Assembly: GCA_024243835.1 (NCBI GenBank)
Contig: JALPMN010000517.1
Coordinates: forward strand, 1 to 14,296
Length of the DNA stretch: 14,296 nt
From: Enteropsectra breve
Lineage: Eukaryota; Microsporidia
Direction: 5' to 3'
The translations under genes were made by a program, and so were the position numbers. Each line of letters begins with the position of its first letter. Within the stretch, counting starts at the first letter, position 1. Positions 1,995-10,841 of the stretch are shown in pieces. The notes under the pieces were generated by a model that did not search any database, was not told the DNA's origin, and was given only the letters and a program-made list of their open reading frames with translations.

Positions 1995-2800
1995 TCGATA
2001 TAGGATAAAAATAGTAAACACATAATATTTGATCTTAATTGTGGGGTTTGACTGAGAAAAGATCATTCTGCAAAAGGTTGTAAATAATTAAGGTTTGTGA
2101 CTATTTTAAAGCTGAATAAAATCTGCTCGTTTGGGTTTTTTCTTGATTTGAACGCATACATACTTTGTCCCATTGGGCCAATAGTCTAAATGATAGCATT
2201 TTGCGTACTGCTTCTAAGCATGCAAGAAAATGAAATTATCTCGGCATTTACATCCAGTGAAGATGAGCACAAATCATGGAAGTTCAACAATTTAATATGT
2301 TAAACCCCTTCAAGCATAAAGCTTTCAACATTCAGGAGTTTTTCGTACAAAAATTAGCGCAATGAGTTTTAAAAAATATGAATCTGAAATATTTTCATTT
2401 CAGTTTTAATCTGAATAGGATAATGAAGGCACTGAATGGATATGGCATTAAAAAACGAAACAATGCTAGCAGCATAGCTTTTTAGATAGTTGCGTAAGTC
2501 TTGATGGATAAAACCTTATCAAAGCTTTGTTTAGCTAGATATTTTATATTTTTTCGTCGGCTCGATGCTATGATCTTAATCTTTTAATTAATTTGATTTT
2601 AATTTGTAAATTAAATTAAAATTCAAGGCAAATTGTCCATGCCAATACATATAAAAGAAAACAATCATTTGTTTGTGTATGATTTAGACTACTAAGATAA
2701 AAATTTATCTCATTAGTAAAATTCTTTCCATCATTACCTTTGATTCTCATCTGAAATACTATCAAATTAAAAGTATTTAAGCAAAAATTTGTTGCATGTT
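1995..2800. other. AT-rich non-coding stretch
   Basis: No convincing gene. Contains a very AT-rich imperfect inverted repeat around 2593-2625 (TTGATTTTAATTT facing AAATT...AAATTCAA). A 37-codon ORF (2190-2303, +) begins with nine hydrophobic residues but is too short and too unlike the microproteins to call. The region separates the minus-strand secreted protein from the plus-strand microprotein cluster and should hold promoters for both directions. Confidence 0.5.
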
Positions 2801-2965
2801 ATGGGTCAGGTCAGAATAGCCGTTATACTGTTTCTCTTGGTAATGATGATACTAATTGTTACTGCTCAAAACTTTGATTTATACTATGAGATGATTAGAA
2901 AGGCGAAGTTAAGGAATGTCTTGAGACGTAAACTGCATCAAGGCAGTCATGATAGCTATGAATAA
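2801..2965 (+). CDS. Microprotein 1 (54 aa, hydrophobic N-terminus, basic tail)
   Basis: A complete 54-codon ATG-to-TAA ORF. Residues 1-5 (MGQVR) carry one positive charge, residues 6-22 form an uninterrupted hydrophobic segment (I to A) suited to a signal peptide or single membrane span, and an aromatic residue follows at position 25 (Phe, where most relatives have Trp). The tail from 26 on is basic and helix-like (MIRKAKLRNVLRRK). VTA|Q at 20-23 would be an acceptable signal-peptidase site, leaving about 32 residues. It is the first of seven similar ORFs on this strand, 55 bases before the next. No family recognised; function unknown. Confidence rests on the shared architecture of the set. 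Confidence 0.5.
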   Translation: MGQVRIAVILFLLVMMILIVTAQNFDLYYEMIRKAKLRNVLRRKLHQGSHDSYE

Positions 2966-3013
2966 ACATTATTTTAAACTAATGCCTGTTGTATTATAAA
3001 TTTTTACTAAGTA

Positions 3014-3018
3014 CCCCC
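3014..3018 (+). promoter_or_regulatory. CCC-type motif before microprotein 2
   Basis: A run of five C at 3014-3018 ends two bases before the ATG at 3021, in a strongly A/T background. It resembles the C-runs before the Cdc73, 8925 and formin starts and the CCC-like start-proximal signals described in microsporidia. It supports this tiny ORF being expressed. Confidence 0.35.
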
Positions 3019-3020
3019 AG

Positions 3021-3155
3021 ATGGGTAAAAACGCAATTCTTAGTATGCTTATTATTTTGACAGCTCTGTTAACAGTTGTTTCGGCGAATTGGTACAGCAG
3101 CTGGTTCGATTTTCTGAAGATAGAGCCGCAAAATGCTAGTGATGGAGAAGAATGA
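3021..3155 (+). CDS. Microprotein 2 (44 aa, hydrophobic N-terminus, Trp24)
   Basis: A complete 44-codon ORF starting right after a C5 run. MGKN is followed by a hydrophobic segment at 5-22 (A to A), then NW at 23-24, a second Trp at 28 and a tail that is acidic at its end (DGEE), unlike the basic tails of its neighbours. VSA|N at 20-23 fits a signal-peptidase site and would release a 22-residue peptide. It shares the MG start and hydrophobic-aromatic layout with the ORF at 2801. A minus-strand open frame over the same bases lacks an ATG and looks like a shadow. Function unknown. Confidence 0.5.
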   Translation: MGKNAILSMLIILTALLTVVSANWYSSWFDFLKIEPQNASDGEE

Positions 3156-3465
3156 GCTCGCCAAAATAAAACACAAATCTCATTATGTCTTCTATGAAAT
3201 GCAATTAGAATAAACACATTTCTAAAGACGTGCTATAATTCAACTAAAACTTTGACTAAGCTCTTCTTTTACAATTGAATTAGCGTTTAAAAAGTATTTA
3301 ATTAAAACAGGACTAAGTATTTGCTACTTTAGAATTAAGCATAAGATTCGTAAAAGTTAGCTAAGTGCTCTATTCCAATTCTATTCCTTATAGTCATTAA
3401 CACAAATGGAATATAAGATTCTGTCTCATCATGATTTGAATGATGTCAGTTTAATATTATAAATA

Positions 3466-3654
3466 TTGATTTTTATAATATTTCATTTAATTATACTTCA
3501 TACCGAATTCAAAGTGATCTTCACCGGCTTTAAGATTAAGACACTATTTAATCTGGGCTATAAAGCTATGCAGAGCGATTGGATCTTATTTTGGCTAGCC
3601 TATATTACTTACATCAGAAAATATCACACTTATAAAATACAGAGAAAGAACTGA
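3466..3654 (+). pseudogene. Possible relic or variant of the microprotein family
   Basis: An open frame of 62 codons with no ATG at its upstream end; it is bounded by TAA at 3460-3462 and starts with TTG. Its only ATG is at 3568 and would give a 28-residue peptide with Trp5, Trp9, a hydrophobic stretch and a basic end (RKYHTYKIQRKN). The 5' part is also hydrophobic (IFIIFHLIIL). It ends three bases before the ATG of the next microprotein. It may be a decayed family member or a chance frame in A/T-rich DNA; I cannot decide between them. Confidence 0.15.
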
Positions 3655-3657
3655 TCA

Positions 3658-3810
3658 ATGCTGAAAATAAGAACGATAGTTCTGCTTATTATGTTCCTGG
3701 TGCTTGCTAATACGCATGTTTTCTGGCAAACAATGTTTACACGACATGTGAGAAGAAAGGCAAAGCTCGAGAGATTAAACAGAAGGAAAAATGTAGAAGG
3801 ATATAATTAA
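3658..3810 (+). CDS. Microprotein 3 (50 aa), close paralogue of microprotein 4
   Basis: A complete 50-codon ORF. MLKIRT is followed by a hydrophobic segment at 7-17 or so (up to LVLA), Trp23, and a strongly basic tail (RHVRRKAKLERLNRRK within 29-44). The start of the protein, TWQ-type region and spacing match the ORF at 4336: about 20 of the first 40 residues are identical by eye, with no gaps, and both genes have TGATCA directly before ATG. Differences are mostly conservative, which argues that it is translated. It is a single-span membrane protein or a secreted cationic peptide (LVLA|N is a possible cleavage site). Function unknown. Confidence 0.6.
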   Translation: MLKIRTIVLLIMFLVLANTHVFWQTMFTRHVRRKAKLERLNRRKNVEGYN

Positions 3811-4335
3811 AATAGGCATACAGTATAAAATATCTCTTAAAACATAGCATCTAAATACAAACACCCTATTTTTTAAGTCTCTAGAATAAAATCTTCATAA
3901 AAAATCTCTAAAAAGCATATTGTGTTTAAGTGAGCTTCCAGCACTAATTTTGAAGGGATTGTGCTTATTTAGTGCATGCATATTAGTAATAAAATAACTG
4001 TAAATGAATGTAGACTTTGGTTTAAAAGAACGCAAAGTACTATTTCTGGTACTAAGATGGCGATAAAATAAAAAAAGAATAAAGCGGTTGCTTATAAATT
4101 AATTCTGATCAGAAAGTAAATAATCAACAGTTGTTGTTGGAAGCTCCACACTTGCTAATTAATAAACTATAGCGTTAACAATAGATATAAACTATTAATA
4201 TTAATCGGCTATAATATTGAACTAAGGGCATTAAGATCATAACAGCCAAATGCCAGTGCCAATGAAATGATTTATCTTTCTTTATATGGAATCAGGAAGA
4301 TTCTAAGCTATAAAAAATAATAGAAAAGATGATCA
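3811..4335. other. Non-coding spacer between paralogous microproteins
   Basis: About 525 bases of A/T-rich sequence. Only ORFs of about 30 codons or fewer were seen (for example a 31-codon frame near 3977) and none has the hydrophobic-Trp layout. No RNA gene recognised. Confidence 0.4.
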
Positions 4336-4485
4336 ATGCTCAAGATAAGAACGATAATTCTGTTTATTATGCTGGTTGCCCTTGCATGCACATACCACTC
4401 TTGGCAGACAAGGTTTGCAATGCATATTAAAAAATATGAGAGAGCCGAGAAACTAAGTAGGCAAGACAACGCTGCTCAATATTAA
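4336..4485 (+). CDS. Microprotein 4 (49 aa), close paralogue of microprotein 3
   Basis: A complete 49-codon ORF. It begins MLKIRTI like the ORF at 3658, has a hydrophobic run at 7-18, Trp23 followed by Gln-Thr in both paralogues, and a charged tail (HIKKYERAEKL at 30-40). The aligned start, gap-free similarity of about half the residues, and shared TGATCA before ATG indicate a duplication. The 5' sequences further upstream look much less similar than the coding parts. ALA|C is a possible signal-peptidase site. Function unknown. Confidence 0.6.
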   Translation: MLKIRTIILFIMLVALACTYHSWQTRFAMHIKKYERAEKLSRQDNAAQY

Positions 4486-4712
4486 TTAAATTTGAGCGAA
4501 TAAACAAGTGTTTGTCTTTTCCTTATTAAAAAGGCTATATCTTATATATAAACATATATTCATAAAGATACTTAAGCTACTTGTATGGCAGTGAGTTTAA
4601 CTGCCCATTTCAATGCGTATTCTCTATTACAGTGATATCAGAAATTAAAAATGGTGATTTAATTGGTTATGATCTTTAAACTAAAGCAAAATGTTTGCAG
4701 AAGTCATATACC

Positions 4713-4871
4713 ATGATTAAGCTAAGGATACTCGGAGTGTTTTTCTTCTTTATTCTATTTACCGTTGTAATACCGAAATGGACAGAAGAACAACTAGAGA
4801 AAATAAGGGAGTTTGTCATGCGTGAGTTCTTTTACAGAATGAAGTCAAAAAAGAAAGCACCTTCAGCCTAA
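4713..4871 (+). CDS. Microprotein 5 (52 aa, Trp23, amphipathic basic tail)
   Basis: A complete 52-codon ORF. MIKLRI resembles the MLKIRT start of the previous two, followed by an aromatic-rich hydrophobic run at 6-20 (GVFFFFILFTVVI), then PKW with Trp at 23, exactly as in microproteins 3, 4 and 7. The tail first alternates charge (TEEQLEKIREF) and ends in a Lys cluster (KSKKK at 44-48). The Pro-Lys before Trp does not fit signal-peptidase cleavage, so this one looks more like a retained membrane anchor. Function unknown. Confidence 0.55.
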   Translation: MIKLRILGVFFFFILFTVVIPKWTEEQLEKIREFVMREFFYRMKSKKKAPSA

Positions 4872-6170
4872 GCTAATTAAAGATATAAAACAGTTTTTTA
4901 AACAACTTATTTTGGTTACCTGTTGAGTCAAGGCTATACGCTATTTTATAGAATTGATGTTAGGATACCTTTTTCAAACTCTATCATTAAATTGAACAGG
5001 TTAGTAAGCCAGTGAGCACAAAGCAAAGAGGAGATGCCGTAAAACATGGCATTTGCCGGTGGTCCCTCTATAAAAATTTCAAGTCTATAATCTTTACTCT
5101 TTGTATTACAGAAGTCAAGGTTTAGGCCAGAAAGTGTATTTAAAGAACGATTAGATATTTTCTATAGCTCGAATATTTAAAATATATGACACGAAATGGA
5201 TTATGATAGGTAAATGTGATTGTATCAGGATATAGTTATTCTAAGCAGTCCTCACAACGCAAAAACCTGAATTTGGCAATTCTAATATGGAATGCTGCAT
5301 ACACTAATAGTAGTGAAATAATGGATACTGCTGTTGCAAACTCGACTATTATTAATGACTAATAGCCAGTGGGCTAAATTATTGAGGTTTTAGTTCTAAA
5401 AATTTTTATTTGAATACAGTACTCTCTAAGTATATTTAGTTTTAATAAATAGCAAATAAACGTATTCTGAAACAAGTCCTAATGCGTTTGATGTTTTGAT
5501 GCTAAAGCACAATGCTGATGACTACTCTGCGACAGTTAAAAAAGAGTTATTTCTCATTATGAGAGCAGATATTCCTAACTTGAAATAATAGGTCGTTATA
5601 GGAAACTGTAGGCAATAAGATTTATCAAAGTGTCAATTCGATGATGCTGGCTATAAACTATGCCGAATTTTATATACGTTAAAAATTTAAGCGCTTTCGG
5701 CATTCAAACAAAACGTTCAACTTGGTTTCGCCAATACCATTAAAGAAACAGCAGTGGTGCCTCTCGTTTTAGAACCAACAGTGATGATCAATTTAATGAC
5801 AAATAATAACATGAATTCCTTTCTTTATACGAACTGCATTAAAATAAGGGTATTCAAACGTATTCTCTCATATTTAAGAGTCTATATAGCTATATAGTCG
5901 TATTAACTACACCTTAAGCTCAGGCTTTTCTTCAGTTTGATTGCAGCATCATTTTAATTTAAAAGCTGATGATGTTTTCCAAAAATAACTGATTTAAATG
6001 ATAAATGGCTGTTTTAGCAAAGTAAAACACATTGCGCTTTTAAAACTCATATCAACCATGATTTATTCATTAAAGTATCTTTTTAATTCAAAACGCCAAA
6101 CGATATGACAAATTTTGAGATCTTAAAATATGTGATCTCTTCAAATATAATAACATGTCAACCAGCAGCA
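4872..6170. other. Long A/T-rich stretch without a recognised gene
   Basis: About 1.3 kb in the middle of the microprotein cluster. Plus-strand ATGs lead only to frames of 37 codons or fewer and none shows the hydrophobic-Trp layout; a partial look at the minus strand also gave nothing. No RNA gene or repeat family was recognised. The in-frame ATG at 6105 belongs to a longer version of the next gene. Eroded family members could be hidden here but I see no direct sign of them. Confidence 0.4.
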
Positions 6171-6311
6171 ATGATCACACTAGCTGTAAGTCTTTTTGTT
6201 TTCTTGCTGCTGTTTAGCATTGTCTATTCTTCCTGGGATGGCATGATGGAGGTGCATAGGAAGAAAATAATCAAGGAAATGCTGGACCAAATGAATGTGA
6301 AAGTTTCGTAG
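6171..6311 (+). CDS. Microprotein 6 (46 aa, Trp22)
   Basis: The frame is open from an ATG at 6105 (68 aa), but starting at the internal ATG at 6171 gives a 46-aa product with the same architecture as the others: a hydrophobic run at 2-19 (ITLAVSLFVFLLLFSIVY), SSW with Trp22, then a basic amphipathic helix (VHRKKIIKEMLDQM). I prefer this start because it places Trp where the relatives have it; the 22 extra upstream residues contain no similar signal. A GTAAGT...TTTAG stretch at 6186-6217 resembles a small intron, but its removal would shift the frame to an early stop. Function unknown. Confidence 0.5.
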   Translation: MITLAVSLFVFLLLFSIVYSSWDGMMEVHRKKIIKEMLDQMNVKVS

Positions 6312-6409
6312 CAAAAGTAAAAGACCCTTTAATTACATGCTATTATTCATAATCAATAATATAATTTCCTTCTTGATTGAGGTATTTTTAAAAATAATAA
6401 AATTTGCCT

Positions 6410-6565
6410 ATGCATAAGTCTCTGCGTATTGTTTTCGTTGCACTGCTTGTGCTGGTCACGCTAGTAAGTTCCAACTGGCAGATTCTTATTAGGAGAAGGC
6501 TTGAACACTTGGCAAGCTACAACAAGACTCTGGACGCGCTTTACAAAAACTTCGTGCCTCAATGA
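6410..6565 (+). CDS. Microprotein 7 (51 aa, Trp23, basic tail)
   Basis: A complete 51-codon ORF, 98 bases after the previous one. MHKSLR gives a positive N-terminus, 7-19 is hydrophobic (IVFVALLVLVTLV), then SSNW with Trp23 and a basic start of the tail (RRRLEH at 28-33). VSS|N is a reasonable signal-peptidase site, which would leave a peptide of about 30 residues. Its base composition is richer in G/C than the surrounding spacer, like real genes in this window. It lies about 200 bases upstream of the Cdc73 gene on the same strand. Function unknown. Confidence 0.55.
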   Translation: MHKSLRIVFVALLVLVTLVSSNWQILIRRRLEHLASYNKTLDALYKNFVPQ

Positions 6566-9422: not shown

Positions 9423-9517
9423 TATCTGTATGATAACGTAGTACCTGTATGATAAAGTAATATCTGTATGATAAAGTACTAACGTATGATAAAGTAGTAT
9501 CTGAAGGATAAATTATT
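9423..9517. repeat. 18-19-bp tandem repeat, 5 copies
   Basis: The consensus is ATCTGTATGATAAAGTAGT. Units are phased at 9426, 9445, 9464, about 9482 (one base deleted) and 9501, with the last more diverged (CTGAAGGATA). The array lies just past the 3' end of the minus-strand nucleotidase gene (stop at 9538) and between convergent genes. It is a minisatellite, probably without coding role. Confidence 0.8.
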
Positions 9518-10610: not shown

Positions 10611-10841
10611 TTATAAGAATCTATATTCTTCCAATTCATTTTATAAATTATAGTTTGGAATAGCCTAATTATTATAGGAATCATTATTTTTATAATTCAT
10701 TTTACAAATTATAGTTTAGGATAGCCTTATATCATAATAGGAATATTATAAGAATCTATATTCTTACAATTCATTTTATAAATTATAGTTTAGAATAGCC
10801 TTATATCATATTATTATAAGAATCATTATTTTTATAATTTA
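10611..10841. repeat. 61-74-bp tandem repeat, 3.5 copies
   Basis: Units begin with TTATAAGAATC-type sequence at 10611, 10672, 10746 and 10814 (partial), giving steps of 61, 74 and 68 bases. Each full unit continues with TATTCTT or TATTTTT, then AATTCATTTTATAAATTATAG, then TTTRGAATAGCC. The unit length varies because of insertions after the TAGCC part. Two subtypes alternate: CTATATTCTT in copies 1 and 3, CATTATTTTT in copies 2 and 4. This suggests amplification of a two-unit block. Confidence 0.8.

Follow-up and report, generated by a model that had tools for sequence, protein, structure and literature searches.

What occupies the 4.6 kb gap that separates two longer open reading frames (ORFs) on contig C59 (JALPMN010000517.1) of the microsporidian Enteropsectra breve? 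We analysed the whole contig of 14,296 bases (the window) within a genome of 3.96 Mb in 155 contigs. A sequence-only reading had picked out seven short plus-strand ORFs at 2801–6565, named here by their first position, and had suggested that they could be a tandem family of membrane or secreted microproteins that had escaped notice. This is also the reading that our comparisons best support, because of the excess of such ORFs over chance, their confinement to one strand, their start signals, a constrained paralogous pair and a second tandem pair on contig C3. We place at roughly 60% the probability that the gap holds a diverged tandem array of real microprotein genes whose products are targeted to the endoplasmic reticulum (ER) and face the host. 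Among the models of its clan, that of the microsporidian small-subunit (SSU) ribosomal RNA scored best at the genome's rRNA locus (C151, 8520–9923; 882 bits); this within-clan comparison is the telling one, because the model searched alone also matches nine of 14 bacterial or archaeal controls.

Seven Hydrophobic ORFs on One Strand of the Gap

All seven ATG ORFs were recovered on the plus strand, with the codon counts and the aromatic positions that had been reported for them (Table 1). The charge pattern was also as described: the first eight residues are net positive in six of the seven (zero in 6171), and so is the tail (all except 3021). A hydrophobic segment near the N-terminus is present in 7/7 products; by our definition the uncharged run measures 12–22 residues rather than the 14–18 given before. 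The ORF at 6171 likewise exists, but as an internal ATG of a longer ORF opening at 6105. GC content is 0.36–0.45 in the ORFs compared to 0.28–0.31 in the gaps that separate them. The 4.6 kb gap is longer than all 60 complete intergenic segments of the other loci (longest 2742 bases), in a comparison where most loci were truncated at 10 kb and any segment reaching the end of a locus was excluded.

Counts of comparable ORFs place the set far beyond chance, as had been proposed. Between 2101 and 6600, a hydrophobic segment combined with Trp at positions 22–24 occurs in five plus-strand ORFs when the first ATG is used, in six when any ATG is allowed, and in none on the minus strand. Markov simulations of orders 1–3 (1000 each under two ATG rules, 6000 in total) yielded means of 0.001–0.007 such ORFs and a maximum of two. 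Because the Trp rule was noticed in the data first, a fairer test omits it: six hydrophobic ORFs of 40–60 codons (first ATG) were then observed, compared to 0.07–0.09 in simulation. Real sequence gave a similar picture. In 62,682 non-ORF bases from 16 other loci, five of 74 ORFs of 40–60 codons are hydrophobic, which corresponds to an expectation of 0.37 per 4,630 bases against the six observed (Poisson 2.6e-6). This background is if anything too high, because a microprotein ORF of the C3 locus is among its five. The excess is thus about 16-fold over the real-sequence rate and about 65- to 85-fold over the simulated one.

The minus strand of the gap had been described as free of similar ORFs. 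That statement stands at 40–60 codons, where none was found. At the wider limit of 30–110 codons, one hydrophobic ORF does lie there: 5812, which has 31 codons, lacks Trp and scores poorly for start signal. No further Trp ORF of the array's kind was found in 155 kb of other sequence from the genome.

Start Signals of the Array ORFs

We derived the start signals of the genome from its long ORFs. Across 63 ORFs of at least 200 amino acids (aa) in the 16 loci and the window, positions −1 to −7 are C-rich and AAATTT is enriched about 5.6-fold within 60 nt. These signals agree with the CCC-like and AAATTT-like signals described for microsporidia (PMC10815200; PMC4589312). A 35-position matrix was then built from 67 ORFs outside the window, so that the seven array ORFs were not in the training set. 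Six of the seven scored within the top 0.1–4.3% of 3903 background ATGs. Among 179 other local ATGs on both strands, the number scoring as high was two for 2801, none for 3021, one for 3658, 11 for 4336, 42 for 4713, three for 6171 and nine for 6410 (Fisher 8e-6, rank test 7e-7, all seven together). The model prefers 6171 far above 6105, which scores poorly. Outside the window, negative start scores were obtained for 11 of 14 hydrophobic ORFs of 30–110 codons. Six array ORFs therefore resemble the small coding sequences (CDSs) of microsporidia in being short and carrying the organism's start signals; 4713 does not.

Kinship and Constraint Within the Array

Relatedness was assessed by segment-shuffle tests of 36 pairs from nine sequences (the seven, one C3 ORF and one ORF of locus L008; 600 shuffles each). 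The pair 3658–4336 stood out with z 13.4, followed by 4713–6171 (5.3), 2801–3021 (4.3), 4336–6171 (4.2) and 4336–C3b (4.1); 3658 is the second-best partner of 2801 (z 3.5). These values should be read with caution, as the L008 ORF, which is not claimed as a member, reaches z 3.2 with 6171. In leave-one-out profiles, the number of decoys per 1000 scoring as well as the member left out was zero for 3658 and for 4336, each helped by the other's presence in the profile, one for 6171, four for 6410 and five for 3021. Genome searches with 2801, 3021, 4713, 6171 and 6410 returned only self-matches, with one or two candidates scored per query. Taken together, the comparisons argue well for common descent of five members and hint at it for 2801 and 4713.

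The products of 3658 and 4336 share 47% identity (E 6e-10 in the genome search) and keep the same residue in 23 of 49 aligned codons despite 57 base changes. Of 3000 neutral simulations in which the frame remained open, 15 equalled this identity. Nonsynonymous divergence (dN) is 0.38, while synonymous divergence (dS) is near saturation at 2.8 (NG86) or 1.0 (LWL85). An ungapped 95-nt repeat of 72% identity runs across the start of both genes. Shared flanking DNA is not claimed for this pair, because in gapped comparisons neither the 300 nt upstream nor the 300 nt downstream aligned better than shuffled sequence.

A Second Tandem Pair on Contig C3

Scanning other loci revealed, on contig C3 (locus L006, 3633–3779, minus strand), an ORF of 49 codons with the same build, and a genome search placed a tandem partner at 3996–4121 of that locus, 60% identical over 42 residues. 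The partner's frame opens at 4172 (77 codons); we took ATG 4121 (60 codons) as its start because the start signals stand there. The element AAAATTTT lies upstream of both ORFs, with CCCCA immediately 5' of each ATG. The two copies retain 25 of 42 residues, a result reached in one of 3000 neutral simulations, and they are identical at 17 of 24 positions from residue 19 on compared to eight of 18 before it.

Kinship of this pair with the window family is suggestive only. Three of 14 pair tests against the seven gave p ≤ 0.0075 (z up to 4.3), and by eye a [QK]TxFxxH motif is common to 3658, 4336 and both C3 products. The seven-sequence profile scored the C3 products at E 0.53 and 3.6, which does not single them out. 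No other convincing member was found among 707 ORFs of 30–120 codons in the window, the 16 loci and five short loci.

Several features near this pair and in the same scan were also recorded. Within L006 3633–4121 (minus strand), the sequence past the stop of the downstream copy resembles the tail of the upstream copy in a different frame. A 525-codon ORF adjoins the pair and has a hydrophobic start and a weak PHD-like similarity below the cut-off. A lone 60-codon ORF at L008 4303–4485 (plus strand) combines a hydrophobic start with a highly charged tail; the genome search gave no paralogue, and its product from ATG 4315 (56 aa, charged tail) is accordingly not claimed as a member. At L010 3285–3443 (plus strand), a 52-codon hydrophobic ORF has a good start score (3.36) and no Trp at 22–24.

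Build of the Products and Database Matches

The products share a build in which a tail of 21–30 residues follows a putative signal peptide or signal anchor. AlphaFold2 modelled 3658, with the other six as the alignment, as a single helix spanning residues 2–49 (pLDDT 85, pTM 0.45); this predicted helix does not discriminate cleavage from anchoring. We dropped an amphipathic-helix mechanism for the tails, because the hydrophobic moment was significantly above shuffled tails in none of nine products (lowest p 0.10).

A word-based search of 5.8 billion proteins found no homologue of the products, although coverage of microsporidia in that database may be limited, as a neighbouring protein also matched only itself there. 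None of the nine products (seven from the window, two from C3) reached a Pfam cut-off; the best score was that of 4336 to DUF2681 (17.3 bits against a cut-off of 28, E 0.006).

Weighing the Explanations

We propose that the gap contains about seven very short genes, each separately started, that would have arisen by tandem duplication followed by quick divergence. Each product would be a single-helix microprotein of 44–54 residues, in which the N-terminus (basic in six of seven) and the uncharged segment would direct entry into the ER as signal peptide or signal anchor. The aromatic residue (Trp in all products but one) may mark the end of the uncharged segment. The mostly basic tail of 21–30 residues would then be the variable working part, and most likely reaches the parasite surface or the host cell as a small host-facing effector. 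The analysis shows the statistical reality of the set, its start signals, partial paralogy and the constraint on one pair; that the products enter the ER, are released or anchored, meet the host and act as effectors we infer. We regard the reality of the gene set as nearly certain and targeting of the products to the ER as very probable. The products are probably secreted or membrane-anchored and exposed to the host. Host exposure is suggested by the general properties of host-exposed microsporidian proteins (targeting signal, family membership and clade restriction), among which clade-specific genes, large families and signal peptides or transmembrane (TM) segments are enriched (PMC5423893). 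For host-facing effector action itself, we lean towards acceptance with less assurance than for ER targeting.

Several results weigh against this proposal. The start signal of 4713, at 22.7% of the 3903 background ATGs, is not distinctive. AAATTT-like elements accompany three of the seven array ORFs compared to 54% of training ORFs, and a C-rich patch (at least three in five) accompanies two of seven compared to 55%; among background ATGs, the corresponding values are 10% and 17%. Synonymous-codon scores are mixed, being negative for 2801 and near zero for 4713, and in the leave-one-out profiles 89 of 1000 decoys matched 2801 and 57 of 1000 matched 4713. The third-position excess in 3658/4336 is not significant (p 0.10), and the tail of this pair changes faster (dN 0.26 for residues 1–22, 0.48 from residue 23 on). 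The conserved part therefore differs between pairs, being the tail in the C3 pair and the hydrophobic part in 3658/4336. The seven window tails combined gave no significant amphipathicity (Fisher p 0.37), and the −3/−1 sites found in 7/7 products come from a permissive, loose rule rather than a validated signal-peptide predictor.

These points bear differently on three other explanations. The genes could be real and encode single-pass membrane microproteins that are never released, with Trp as an interface residue, acting as subunits or regulators in the parasite ER, plasma membrane or organelles. Such proteins would account for the uncharged run of 12–22 residues with an aromatic residue at its end and, in most, basic residues on both sides, for the unbroken AlphaFold2 helix over residues 2–49, and for the better conservation of the hydrophobic part in 3658/4336. 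Housekeeping subunits are not usually encoded by tandem, multi-copy arrays that diverge fast, however, and both the permissive −3/−1 sites in all seven and the C3 pair, whose tail is more conserved than the part before it, point away from this explanation. Anchoring is itself compatible with each of these objections. Among the small CDSs of Belkorchia 2015, a single TM segment was predicted in five of 32 and a signal peptide in one of 32 (PMC4589312), proportions that favour membrane proteins. Overall, we consider this explanation unlikely, though it is the one that competes most closely with secreted or host-exposed products.

The other two deny that the ORFs are intact genes. As decayed remains, they would be the signal-peptide ends of truncated members of a longer secreted family. 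Microsporidia do have large secreted families (PMC10393165), a gene beside the array (1095–2066) has diverged matches elsewhere in the genome, and long gaps separate the ORFs. Decay would not be expected to leave seven ORFs of similar length, six of them with their own start signals, or constraint on the paired copies of 3658/4336 and of C3. Moreover, long ORFs of the other loci searched against the gap (tblastn) gave one weak minus-strand match (E 0.016), and blastn of the gap against these loci gave none, so that we judge decay very improbable. Chance hydrophobic ORFs in A/T-rich DNA do arise, as seen in the five of 74 elsewhere and in the 31-codon ORF on the minus strand of the gap. For the set as a whole, chance is already refuted by the size of the excess, by the negative start scores of most hydrophobic ORFs outside the window and by paralogy and constraint within the array, and we give it almost no weight; a single member (4713, 2801) could nevertheless be spurious.

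Coordinates and Neighbouring Genes

Table 1. Features of the putative microprotein array in the window.
Feature	Position	Strand	Product	Aromatic residue	Remarks
Microprotein 1	2801..2965	+	54 aa	Phe25, replacing Trp	Hydrophobic segment, then NFDLYYEM tail
Microprotein 2	3021..3155	+	44 aa	Trp24	Acidic tail, net −4
Microprotein 3	3658..3810	+	50 aa	Trp23	Tail net +7
Microprotein 4	4336..4485	+	49 aa	Trp23	Paralogue of 3658
Microprotein 5	4713..4871	+	52 aa	Trp23	
Microprotein 6	6171..6311	+	46 aa	Trp22	From internal ATG; 68 aa from 6105
Microprotein 7	6410..6565	+	51 aa	Trp23	
AAATTT element of microprotein 1	2785..2790	+			Read in sequence; enriched upstream of the genome's long ORFs
AAATTT element of microprotein 2	2998..3003	+			Read in sequence
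CCCCC, CCC-like start signal	3014..3018	+			Shortly 5' of ATG 3021
AAATTT element of microprotein 7	6400..6405	+			Read in sequence

Within the array, 4872–6104 is a 1.2 kb interval without a microprotein ORF and has a GC content of 0.313 compared to 0.28–0.29 in the other gaps. Outside the window, L017 1685–4426 (GC 0.36) is the only spacer above 2 kb among the 60 measured. Short tandem arrays lie in window spacers at 811–886 (19/38 bases), 9423–9512 (19/37 bases) and 10611–10839 (about 74 bases).

The 1095–2066 ORF (minus strand, 323 codons) encodes 299 aa with a hydrophobic start from ATG 1994. Searching the genome gave its product five further diverged matches (two on C112 and one each on C141, C98 and C14; 21–31% identity, E 2e-7 to 0.003), of which that on C98 contains one stop. 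The gene and its matches may form a further secreted-looking family. Other window genes matched Pfam models for a GDA1/CD39 nucleoside phosphatase (32.5 bits, cut-off 24.9) and an FH2 formin domain (77.2 bits, cut-off 34.8); a Cdc73 C-terminal match (31.9 bits) fell just under the cut-off of 32.8, and an EF-hand pair (21.1 bits) was below that of 30. No Rfam match reached its gathering score in the window.

Relation to Known Microsporidian Systems

The putative array resembles the large microsporidian families (NemLGF and others), which are likewise multi-copy and fast-diverging, have an N-terminal targeting segment and lack homologues found so far (PMC5423893; PMC10393165). In Reinke 2017 and Wadi 2023, a large family has at least 10 members, with a signal peptide or TM segment in at least 50% or at 2-fold enrichment, and most such families are clade-specific. 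The array has seven members and two possible ones on C3, counted from genome searches that scored one or two candidates per query and a profile scan of 155 kb, the window and five short loci, against a minimum of 10 for a large family (PMC5423893; PMC10393165).

Size sets the array apart as well; its ORFs had been suggested to fall below common annotation cut-offs. In the Nematocida pipeline of Wadi 2023, genes were predicted with Prodigal, and products below 100 aa were retained only if supported by a hit in UniRef90 or Pfam at E 0.001 (PMC10393165). The array products have about 50 residues (44–54), and Pfam gives no match at that value for any of the nine microproteins. MicroAnnot works by default from ORFs of 240 nt or more and, in addition, compares short CDSs for similarity with small genes already known (PMC10815200). 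A new family of this kind would probably be missed by both.

Small CDSs have been overlooked before. Those of Belkorchia 2015 measure 25–84 aa in Encephalitozoon cuniculi (median 55) and were found, as here, through transcriptional and translational signals beside small ORFs (PMC4589312). Four Encephalitozoon small CDSs carry AAATTT-like or adenine-rich elements above a CCC-like motif (PMC4589312). They differ from the array in that the Encephalitozoon small CDSs were picked for conservation across species and just one has a predicted signal peptide; in the main text of that paper, the words "tandem" and "paralog" are absent (PMC4589312). The tandem ricin-B-lectin-like secreted proteins of Spraguea lophii also form clusters by tandem duplication; unlike the array, that family is broadly conserved and lectin-like, and the secreted proteins found have 101–935 aa (PMC3749934). 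Among the titles and abstract openings listed in our literature searches, none describes such small proteins of microsporidia as a tandem family.

On the best reading, the array adds to the known lineage-specific secreted families of microsporidia. A broader idea, tentative and on balance doubtful, is that the array and the C3 pair sample a hidden class of tandem arrays, which microsporidia would use as a fast-evolving repertoire of ER-targeted, host-facing peptides of about 50 residues and which annotation length filters would have kept out of published sets of host-exposed proteins. Catalogues of host interaction in microsporidia rest on annotated proteins; should arrays of this kind prove to be translated and exported, one layer of the parasite–host interface has been left out of them, and a scan for start signals would be a direct way to list similar arrays in other microsporidian genomes.

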